Assembly: GCF_001592735.1 (NCBI RefSeq)
Contig: NZ_LUKE01000003.1
Location: forward strand, 1-64,000
Length of the DNA stretch: 64,000 nt
Reading direction: 5' to 3'
DNA from: Bdellovibrio bacteriovorus
Lineage (GTDB): Bacteria > Bdellovibrionota > Bdellovibrionia > Bdellovibrionales > Bdellovibrionaceae
Part shown: positions 32,602 through 35,153 of the stretch, one piece after another
Layout: every line of letters starts with the position of its first letter
How positions within the stretch are numbered: position 1 is the first letter of the stretch
Made by a program: the position numbers and the translations under genes
The notes under the pieces: generated by a model
Told to the model about the DNA's origin: nothing
What the model saw: the letters and a program-made list of their open reading frames with translations, nothing else
The model's database searches: none

Positions 32602-33171
32602 ATGCTCAGCCAGTTTATCGAAAAAAAGATGACCTATGACGGAACGCAATTGCGTTCTTTATTTGCCTATCTTGATCATGGACTTTTAGGTCCTTCCGTT
32701 GTGGCGTTTCGCGGGCCTTGCAATATTTCTTTTGATCATATGGTGGACGGTGAAGATCTTTTGGCTCAGGCCGTGATCGCGGGTGATGATATGCTTCATT
32801 TCATTATTGAAGTGTTTGATCGCGATTTGTTTTCAGGTGTGGCTTTGCAAAGACTTTTTGCTTCGATCTGTCGTGATTACTTAAATCCGCAAGCGTTGCG
32901 GGCTTTGGGTGAACCCGGCCTTGTTCGTGATGGCGATGACATTTACTATTCGGATCGCAAGCTTTCTATTAGTATTGCGACGAAATCTCCGGTGTCGACG
33001 ATGGTGCATTTCGCGATGAATGTGACCAACAAAGGAACACCCGTTAAAACCTTAAGCCTTGAAGATATCGGTGTTAAGCCCGAGATCGCGGCTGAAGACA
33101 TCATGAAGCTGTTTAAGGCCGAATATCTTTCGATCATGGCGGCCACCCAAAAAGTGCGGCCGGTGCCTTAG
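32602..33171 (+). CDS. DUF366 family protein
   Basis: 189 residues. It matches the DUF366 pattern (LLGPSVVAFRGPCNISFDHMVDGEDL ... ISIATKSPVSTMVHFAMNV). The function is unknown. Members are often found near queuosine or deazapurine genes. It starts at the base after the queC stop, with no gap, so it is presumably expressed together with queC. Confidence 0.8.
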   Translation: MLSQFIEKKMTYDGTQLRSLFAYLDHGLLGPSVVAFRGPCNISFDHMVDGEDLLAQAVIAGDDMLHFIIEVFDRDLFSGVALQRLFASICRDYLNPQALRALGEPGLVRDGDDIYYSDRKLSISIATKSPVSTMVHFAMNVTNKGTPVKTLSLEDIGVKPEIAAEDIMKLFKAEYLSIMAATQKVRPVP

Positions 33172-33307
33172 TTCATGGTCCGATTATTATTACTAAAAAG
33201 TTCCGGGCGTCTTTTGCTGCGACGTCAAATCGGAATAAATTCATTTTTAAGTAGGTCTGTAGATTGCCAGATGGGCTGTCGTATTTGTTAATTTAACCCT
33301 TTTCGAA

Positions 33308-33326
33308 ATTATCGAATTACGATAAT
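33308..33326 (+). promoter_or_regulatory. Operator-like palindrome upstream of the HigA-like gene
   Basis: Perfect inverted repeat ATTATCG-AATTA-CGATAAT, ending 9 bases before the ATG. The position fits autorepression by the HigA-like HTH protein. Confidence 0.65.
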
Positions 33327-33335
33327 GTGGTAATT

Positions 33336-33614
33336 ATGAAAAAATCTTTGGAATTTAAGAATCCGTTTCATCCGGGGAAAGTATTATTAGAAGAATTTCT
33401 GATTCCACAAGAATTGACGCAAGCGCAGTTTGCGGATGACGTGGGTTGGACAAAAGCTAAGTTAAACGAAATTATCAAGGGCAAACGTGGTATTACGGCC
33501 GACACCGCTTTAGACCTTGCTGATGCCTTAGGAACAACGCCTGAAATTTGGATGAATATGCAAAGTGCGTTTGACTTAAGTGTAGCGCGCAAAACGCGAA
33601 AAAAAAGGGCTTAG
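33336..33614 (+). CDS. HigA-like HTH protein (solitary antitoxin-type regulator)
   Basis: 92 residues from the ATG at 33336; an in-frame GTG lies 9 bases upstream, and no strong ribosome-binding site is seen. It matches the HigA addiction-module antidote pattern: NPFHPGKVLLEEFLIPQELTQAQFADDVGW, HTH, GITADTALDLADALGTTPEIWMNMQ. HigB, normally adjacent upstream, is missing: the 150 bases before it hold only the palindromic operator. So it is either an orphan antitoxin or a simple transcription factor. The inverted-repeat unit begins 10 bases after its stop. Confidence 0.88.
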   Translation: MKKSLEFKNPFHPGKVLLEEFLIPQELTQAQFADDVGWTKAKLNEIIKGKRGITADTALDLADALGTTPEIWMNMQSAFDLSVARKTRKKRA

Positions 33615-33624
33615 GGCTGACTGT

Positions 33625-33686
33625 TTACCCACATCTTTAATTTGAGGTGGTTTTTTTCCCCTCGCCGGGAGGAGACACTGCATTGA
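33625..33686 (+). repeat. Left inverted repeat of the 33625-34707 unit
   Basis: Contains CCCACATC ... GAGGTGG, seven T, then GAGGAGACACTGCATTGA at the inner end. It pairs with 34645-34707. Confidence 0.7.
33628..33657 (+). terminator. Terminator inside the left repeat (serves higA-like gene)
   Basis: Stem CCACATC / GAGGTGG with one mismatch and seven T, just after the HigA-like gene. Confidence 0.6.
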
Positions 33687-33992
33687 GGATTTTATTTTTT
33701 AAGTTTTAAAAAAAGACATCTAAAAAAACCTCTTTGACAGAATCACGGAAACAAAACATTTTAAAAAAATCTCTTGCGGGTGTTTTTCTAAGTGCCCACC
33801 GAGGCTTTACGATGACTAAATAATTCTTCCCAACCCGCCCTCGTGTCTTCGATTTTCGCTAAGCTCAAAGAGTTTTATACGTTTACAGATCCCCTCTTAA
33901 AGCCTTTCGTAAAGACTTTAAAAAAACAGAAAAGAGCCAAATCTGAGAGCTAAAAAGCCGTGATATAACTTCCCAAATTCAAGGGAGTGGTC
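33687..33992 (+). other. AT-rich leader inside the inverted-repeat unit
   Basis: About 300 bases without a gene, rich in A/T runs. TTGACA at 33734-33739 is a possible -35, with no good -10 at the right distance. The stretch between the repeat and the gene could hold a structured leader RNA; I see no known RNA family. Confidence 0.35.
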
Positions 33993-34634
33993 ATGTCTTT
34001 AAAATTTTATTCTAACCAAGAGTTAATCCAAAGAATCGAAAAGCTTGTTCGCACGGAAAGAAAAATCACACACTTGGTTTTACTTCACATCAACGAAATC
34101 GAAACACGCAAGCTGCATTTAGATATGGGTTATGATGGGATGTATTCTTATTTAACCAAAGGCTTAGGATTTTCGGATGGGGCTGCTTACAGACGTTTGC
34201 AGTCAGCAAGGCTGTTAAACCAAGTCCCCGAGGTGGCGGAAAAAATTGAAGCAGGGACTTTAAATTTATCTCAACTCACTCAAGTGCAAAAATGCCTTAC
34301 AGAAGCTTCGCAAAAAGGTGTGGTCGTCAGTGCATATCAGGCAACCCGCATCTTAGAAAAGATCGAAAATAAGAACGGCTTTGAGACTTTAAAAACCTTG
34401 GCTGCAGAGTTTGATATCCCAGCTCAAAGCTTTACAAAGCTTACGCCTCAAAAAGATCAGTCTGTGCGTTTAGAAGTGACACTTTCAGAACAACAATTTG
34501 CCGAGCTGGAGTTGGCAAGAAGTCTTTTGTCCCATGTTTTCCCAGATGGCCAGTGGTCCGATATTATTGGAAGTTTAGCTGAAAGATTTAATAAGAAAAA
34601 GTTAGGTGGAGGAAGGCTTCAGTTAGTAAATTAG
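33993..34634 (+). CDS. HNH-endonuclease-family N-terminal domain protein lacking the HNH domain
   Basis: 213 residues from the ATG at 33993 (GGGAG upstream; GTG 6 bases earlier is the alternative). It resembles the helical N-terminal part of Bdellovibrio HNH endonuclease proteins: ELIQRIEKLVRTERKITHLVLLHINEIETRKLH ... GYDGMYSYLTKGLGFSDGAAYRRLQSARLL. Those proteins usually continue with an HNH zinc nuclease. Here the protein stops after FNKKKLGGGRLQLVN, just where the HNH would begin. It has no nuclease motif itself, so DNA-binding or a regulatory role is possible. It is the only gene of the inverted-repeat unit. Confidence 0.75.
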   Translation: MSLKFYSNQELIQRIEKLVRTERKITHLVLLHINEIETRKLHLDMGYDGMYSYLTKGLGFSDGAAYRRLQSARLLNQVPEVAEKIEAGTLNLSQLTQVQKCLTEASQKGVVVSAYQATRILEKIENKNGFETLKTLAAEFDIPAQSFTKLTPQKDQSVRLEVTLSEQQFAELELARSLLSHVFPDGQWSDIIGSLAERFNKKKLGGGRLQLVN

Positions 34635-34644
34635 GCACAACTTT

Positions 34645-34707
34645 TCAACGCAGTGTCTCCTCTCTGCGAAGTACAAAAAACCCACATCGAATAAAAGATG
34701 TGGGTAA
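34645..34707 (-). repeat. Right inverted repeat of the 33625-34707 unit
   Basis: Reverse complement of the left end, containing GCAGTGTCTCCTC and a hairpin with CCCACATC and GATGTGGG. Confidence 0.7.
34675..34704 (-). terminator. Terminator inside the right repeat (serves gene 34731-35153)
   Basis: On the minus strand, perfect 8-bp stem CCCACATC / GATGTGGG and six T. Confidence 0.8.
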
Positions 34708-34730
34708 TAGTAAGGGGGCATGCCCCTTTT

Positions 34731-35153
34731 TTAATGCCCACTGTGGGCGTCTTTATTTTCTTTAAATTCTTTAAGGGGAAGTTTGTAGGTCACTTCGTTG
34801 CCAACCGCATTTTCGCGCGTGGCTTTAATACGAAGTTCCGCTTTCTTTGAATATTTTTGGCTAGCCACGCAGTGAAAGTGATTTCCACCCATCACCGAAC
34901 AAGTAAATGGCACCTCTTTTTTACCGGCGACGGCCTTCATCTCTATTTTAGAATCTTTCACCGTCGGATTTTTAAATTCCATATCCAGTAAAAAAATATG
35001 CGCGTCTTGCTTTTCATCCAACATCAATTCGGTATGAAACCCACCGGGCATCTGAACGTGTCCTCCGTGAGGACCGGGTTTGTCTTCGCCGTGGGCCCAG
35101 GCGAAAGTGGCCGTATTTAGGATCAAAAAGCAAGCAAGGCTGAATAGTTTCAT
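34731..35153 (-). CDS. Periplasmic His-rich protein, probably metal-related
   Basis: 140 residues with signal peptide (ending FAWAHG). His residues cluster at the mature N-terminus (HGEDKPGPHGGHVQMPGGFH) and at the very C-terminus (DAHSGH). There are two Cys in the core (FTCSVMGGNHFHC). It is divergent from the copper ATPase gene at 35273, with 119 bases between, so shared control is likely. The probable role is periplasmic copper or other metal binding, inferred from composition and context. Confidence 0.75.
   Translation of the reverse strand: MKLFSLACFLILNTATFAWAHGEDKPGPHGGHVQMPGGFHTELMLDEKQDAHIFLLDMEFKNPTVKDSKIEMKAVAGKKEVPFTCSVMGGNHFHCVASQKYSKKAELRIKATRENAVGNEVTYKLPLKEFKENKDAHSGH

Follow-up and report, generated by a model that had tools for sequence, protein, structure and literature searches.

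A nuclease-less DUF222 gene between inverted repeats in Bdellovibrio bacteriovorus, possibly a copy of a mobile 13E12-like DUF222/HNH unit

The 64,000-nucleotide stretch of Bdellovibrio bacteriovorus DNA analyzed in this study, hereafter the window, contains a short gene enclosed by inverted repeats, and the question that it raises is what kind of unit this is. The original prediction, made from the letters alone, was a non-autonomous mobile or domesticated element with one gene and ends of about 60 bp. An inverted repeat of that length is indeed present. Positions 33625-33686 and the reverse complement of 34645-34707 are 83% identical in a genome-scale BLAST search (E 1.1e-9), and the local alignment score of the arms is 43, whereas none of 1000 shuffles scored above 18; the perfectly matching runs within the arms are TTACCCACATCTTT and GAGGAGACACTGC. 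Judged from the sequence, the window unit therefore has terminal inverted repeats like those of insertion sequences, and we regard them as its putative termini.

The arms had been described as one uniform 60-bp end, and this description was not supported. Each arm is a composite of an inner end of about 25 bp and an outer hairpin part. The inner end (core GAGGAGACACTGCGTTGA) is also present at a sister unit in the same genome (L032, C2:388 kb) and has variants across the family at large, whereas the outer hairpin part was seen at the window unit only. On the left, the inner core CGCCGGGAGGAGACACTGCATTGA (33662-33686, plus strand), recognized from the repeat alignment, is an inverted copy of the right core and corresponds to a family motif that other members carry on the same strand, about 255-290 bp ahead of the ATG. 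The right inner core (34645-34668, minus strand; reverse complement CGCAGAGAGGAGACACTGCGTTGA), recognized by both repeat alignment and family motif, begins 10 bp past the stop codon. The outer part on the right (34675-34707, minus strand) is, by terminator scan and folding, a strong intrinsic terminator for the gene at 34731-35153, with a hairpin of -14.6 kcal/mol (z -6.25). Its inverted copy on the left (33625-33660, plus strand), recognized by alignment and folding, consists of the hairpin ACCCACATC..GAGGTGGT and T7, but is degenerate (-6.4 kcal/mol, z -0.86), amounts to a weak terminator and was not called by the terminator scan; of the two predicted terminators, only the right one thus held up. 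A further terminator-like hairpin found by the scan, GGGGGCATGCCCC with T6 (34712-34731, plus strand), would serve plus-strand transcripts of the unit gene. An exact search for the 13-mer core of the ends returned just these two sites in the 3.93-Mb genome, so the proposed genome search gave no further site for the exact core, although the end motif does recur in variant form. Dispersed solo ends were considered and rejected, as matches elsewhere with up to three mismatches are about as frequent as those of a reversed-pattern control and the exact core is confined to the window unit.

The single gene of the unit (33993-34634, plus strand) encodes a 213-aa protein that matches DUF222 at 24.4 bits, exactly the Pfam gathering score, and the Pfam scan found no C-terminal HNH nuclease in it, in agreement with the predicted HNH-family relative lacking its nuclease. 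No known transposase domain appeared in the Pfam and NCBIfam scans, which returned DUF222 and HNH only. Between the left end and the gene lie a subterminal conserved block with AAAAAAATCTCTTGCGGGTGTTTTTC (33754-33788, plus strand), which the sister unit L032 shares at 91% identity, and an extended -10 promoter-like sequence, GTGATATAAC (33960-33969, plus strand), whose position is kept across family members (alignment consensus GTG.TATA, some 25-35 bp ahead of the ATG). An AlphaFold2 model of the protein has a mean pLDDT of 90. In this model, residues 18-144 match the DNA-binding domains of ParB, Noc, KorB, SopB and VirB (best Z 8.7, rmsd 2.5 Å over 99 residues), and 14 of the top 16 rows of the fold search belong to these five proteins, although mostly helical folds easily reach middling Z values. 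With Z scores of 5-9 for a mostly helical domain, the model is suggestive of a ParB-like, helix-turn-helix DNA-binding fold. Residues 143-206 form a beta-beta-alpha-alpha C-terminal domain (pLDDT 92), for which the ribbon-helix-helix-like matches are weak (TCP domain, Z 5.3; plasmid ParB 3no7, Z 3.9) and were given no weight as evidence. Foldseek alone, run with the whole model against the PDB, gave receptor noise only, and no viral structure matched the model below E 1e-3.

The two convergent host genes that flank the unit, at 32602-33171 (plus strand) and 34731-35153 (minus strand), are separated by 1,559 bp in the window, whereas in at least 13 of 24 genus genomes they abut, the gap as read from gene coordinates not exceeding about 130 bp; their stop codons abut or overlap in relatives, and in G018, G001 and G009 the two genes overlap or touch at these codons. 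From these comparisons, a 1.56-kb block looks to have been inserted in the window lineage. The block also holds a HigA-like helix-turn-helix gene (33336-33614, plus strand) that the relatives lack at this locus and that lies outside the inverted ends, and more than one insertion event may therefore be involved. For this antitoxin-type gene, no toxin partner is visible in the preceding gap (33172-33335). Aligning the locus with and without the unit had been suggested as a way to find the exact junctions; it showed the site to be empty in relatives but yielded neither the junctions nor a target duplication, as the HigA-like gene also lies between the host genes and identity to the nearest relatives is only about 73% here. 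What stands of the predicted element is accordingly a one-gene unit with inverted ends, a locus that is empty in relatives rather than intact, and a second unit (L032) with its own variant ends, so that the ends are not unique to one place; the uniform end and the double terminators do not belong to it.

Presence and absence were also seen at other loci of the family. Four family loci are occupied in just one of G012 and G022, two species with 92% identical DNA. The family copy of G002 has no counterpart in G006 and G023, and G020 and others lack the L102 unit; outside the G012/G022 pair, the loci concerned are those of G002 and G001. No clean target duplication was found at the four G012/G022 sites and the one G002 site checked, where the single candidate was GAGG (4-5 bp, L176). 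The same chromosomal gap can be occupied by distantly related members, as at the L138 locus (G011) compared with L182/L183 (G022/G012) and G021:C1:2625638, and at the L032 locus (G000), where L186/L187 (G018/G001) are different, distantly related members. At L137 (G021:C1:3235091), the flanks of the unit are more than 2 Mb apart in G012 and G022, which marks a rearrangement breakpoint.

Genomes of this Bdellovibrio-like genus carry between 0 and 12 members of the family, and that of the window has six dispersed copies and one broken fragment (L035); a scan of the genome contigs added one further relative, without arrays. DUF222 was matched by 50 of 58 members in Pfam. HNH is present in 50 of the 58 aligned members and missing in eight, the window copy and seven others, and no HNH remnant was found 3' of the nuclease-less genes except in the broken fragment. 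The nuclease-less copies sit at several positions of the tree (the window copy with L032, L102/L104, L105, L112/L113 and L119), and, as read from this tree, the nuclease is lost at least four separate times. The window unit and L032 are sisters (support 100/99), with a dN of 0.21 and a saturated dS; because their C-termini are similar, the loss of the nuclease most likely preceded their duplication. For the nuclease-less ortholog pair L102/L104, dN/dS is 0.137, which indicates that the short protein is kept by selection. L033 and L034, full-length copies of the window genome, are sisters on the tree, the twelve copies of G017 form one clade and several genomes contain sister pairs, all of which shows that the units multiply within lineages. 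Among those compared, the closest copies within a genome reach a maximum of 81% amino acid identity; with no near-identical copies in any genome, no recent transposition was caught. In G007, the left end and N-terminal domain of L115 and L116 are 93% identical in DNA while the HNH part is just 75% identical, a pattern that probably reflects gene conversion of the left part between paralogs and not transposition.

To compare ends across the family, a motif was trained solely on the upstream DNA of 59 genes, with the downstream DNA kept out of training. Upstream, the motif scores above the null in about 45 of the 59 members, mostly about 255-290 bp before the ATG. Past the stop codon, it occurs on the opposite strand in 20 of 59 members (13 above the 99% null). 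As controls, the downstream forward strand gave 6 (1 above the null) and the upstream reverse strand 1 (0). A recognizable inverted right end is thus found in about a third of the members, which counts against the explanation that we prefer below. In the window unit, the automatic procedure chose a chance site upstream and not the true left end, whose core starts at -326 to -331 relative to the ATG; this end was placed manually on the basis of the repeat. Left and right ends match at 17.4 of 24 positions within units and at 13.7 of 24 between units (0 of 20,000 permutations), a difference to which shared ancestry contributes and for which only pairs with a visible inverted copy were selected. 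L114, a full-length unit, has an inverted repeat of its own that is 69 bp long (score 46.5 against 15.5). The left-end motifs of L033 and L034 differ from that of the window unit, whose core is common only to the equally nuclease-less L032, and no full-length partner with the same ends was found in the genome. Since the full-length copies of its own genome carry different ends, any help in trans from these paralogs would be conjectural. In G017 members, TGTCAT boxes are repeated inside the left end, and in L123-L134 the region from the left end to the promoter (about -190 to -60) is of near-constant length with almost no sequence conservation.

A second feature of the borders is short tandem arrays (units of 3-12 bp, mostly 4-9), which lie near 26 of 59 members. 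Their density is 0.77/kb just outside the left end and 0.90/kb in the 150 bp past the stop codon, compared with 0.06/kb between the left end and the ATG. In 1.2 Mb picked without regard to arrays, intergenic DNA near family genes held 6 arrays in 5.7 kb versus 3 in 118.6 kb elsewhere, an enrichment of about 40-fold. In the 24 whole genomes, 11 of 13 loci with exact (AGAT)5 arrays adjoin a DUF222 gene, counting contig ends apparently broken within an array as joined. Copy number varies between orthologs (41 copies at L184, 6 at L185). The window copy has no array, and its sister L032 has arrays on both sides (L032:3082-4150); other array-bordered units include L033, L102, L105, L109, L110, L120, L128, L180 and L184, with array units such as AGAT, GTTA, ATCCATC and CATCAACT. 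A target preference for microsatellites was considered and largely rejected, as the empty site that corresponds to the L102 unit in G020 has no array. The rejection is not complete, because two AGAT-type arrays, at L233:1470-1540 in G006 and L234:1500-1540 in G013, lie apart from any DUF222 gene; a search at E 1e-20 returned no member of the DUF222 family in either genome.

On balance, we consider it somewhat probable that the window unit is a nuclease-less copy of a mobile unit of the 13E12-like DUF222/HNH kind, with a ParB-like protein that binds its ends. A full unit would consist of a left end, a gene with its own promoter (DUF222, the beta-beta-alpha-alpha domain and HNH) and an inverted right end just past the stop codon. 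We infer that the DNA-binding part would recognize both ends and that, in full-length members, the HNH part would nick or cut near them, by which the unit may enter short gaps between genes; repair of the breaks with slippage at the junctions could then leave short tandem arrays. The window copy would have lost its nuclease before its separation from L032 and may have been kept as a DNA-binding protein, either as a non-autonomous copy or as a binder that regulates its own kind. Besides the scarcity of recognizable right ends, points against this explanation are the divergence of copies within each genome, the failure to find a firm target duplication, the different ends of full-length paralogs, the gene-conversion pattern of L115/L116 and the modest Z values of the ParB-like matches.

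The family could instead consist of free-standing homing endonucleases, in which HNH cuts a particular intergenic site in gene-less DNA and flank recombination copies the gene into it; the inverted motifs would then be binding sites for control and the window copy a stage after nuclease loss. The occupation of the same chromosomal sites by different members across species (the L138 locus; L032 versus L186/L187), the divergence of the copies and the repeated nuclease loss all fit this explanation, which we nevertheless hold to be rather unlikely: homing genes have no need of inverted ends, the lineage-specific spread to many sites of a single genome (12 in G017) resembles transposition, purifying selection acts on a nuclease-less pair and the window unit and L032 were duplicated after the nuclease had been lost. 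That purifying selection, the ParB/KorB-like fold, the repeated TGTCAT boxes of G017 members and the strong right terminator would equally suit a domesticated regulator, for which the inverted motifs would be operators, the terminator would insulate the neighbors and presence or absence would be ordinary gain and loss of intergenic genes. However, operators require no inverted copy past the stop codon, and neither arrays at the outer borders nor many paralogous copies at unrelated sites are required, which makes this explanation quite improbable. Finally, the outer hairpin part, being unique to the window unit, could point to a local origin of the repeat, e.g., an inverted duplication of the terminator, without wider meaning; recurrence of the inner core at L032 and of a related motif family-wide at the same positions and in the same orientations leaves very little room for it. 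For the preferred explanation of a mobile unit, the observations comprise the inverted ends, the family, its pattern of presence and absence, duplication within lineages, purifying selection on a nuclease-less pair and the association with arrays; binding to the ends, the cutting step and the route of movement are all inferred.

The REP13E12 elements of mycobacteria are known to have two overlapping frames and a phage attachment site. The units described here resemble them in the combination of DUF222 with HNH and in several diverged copies per genome. DUF222-HNH proteins of the REP13E12 (13E12) type are classed as repetitive elements in Mycobacterium tuberculosis (PMC10589994), and gene conversion between copies of the 13E12 family (PMC13061034) is comparable to that of L115/L116. 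The open-access papers searched yielded no mention of inverted ends, nuclease-less forms or border tandem arrays in this family, nor a described function for it. With insertion sequences and MITE-like elements, the units share one gene between inverted repeats, occurrence at multiple sites, presence or absence between species and loss of the catalytic part; they differ from insertion sequences in having no known transposase domain, diverged copies and only one candidate target duplication, and the window unit differs from MITE-like elements in that its genome yielded no full-length partner bearing these ends. Free-standing HNH homing endonucleases are likewise intergenic nuclease genes with repeated nuclease loss and sites common to different species, whereas this family has inverted ends, lineage-specific multi-site expansion and a nuclease-less form under selection. 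The putative likeness to ParB, Noc, KorB and SopB is one of fold (residues 18-144, Z up to 8.7); identity is 7-15%, the match covers the helix-turn-helix domain only and HNH follows in full-length relatives. The HNH of full-length members also resembles that of the RNA-guided IscB (NCBIfam E 2e-5 to 1e-6, far below the cut-off), but only the HNH part matches. An IscB-like structured guide RNA upstream was tentatively rejected, as folding z-scores were near zero in the upstream regions of 24 members.

The protein family is already known as a repeat family, and its inverted ends and junction arrays went unreported in the open-access papers searched. More tentatively, the units may constitute an undescribed class of transposable elements, in which a ParB-like domain combined with HNH recognizes terminal inverted repeats, activity at the junctions creates or feeds the arrays and nuclease-less copies persist as a regulatory or passenger form; we see this as possible but doubtful. 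With its ends defined, a DNA-binding fold likely, and both empty sites and naturally nuclease-less versions at hand, the 'HNH repeat' becomes bench-testable. Short tandem arrays are otherwise rare in the genome stretches examined, so that if a nuclease family leaves them at its borders, the origin of such repeats in bacteria would be tied to a selfish gene. Several contigs of G018 end within such arrays, and runs of N lie inside arrays at two loci.
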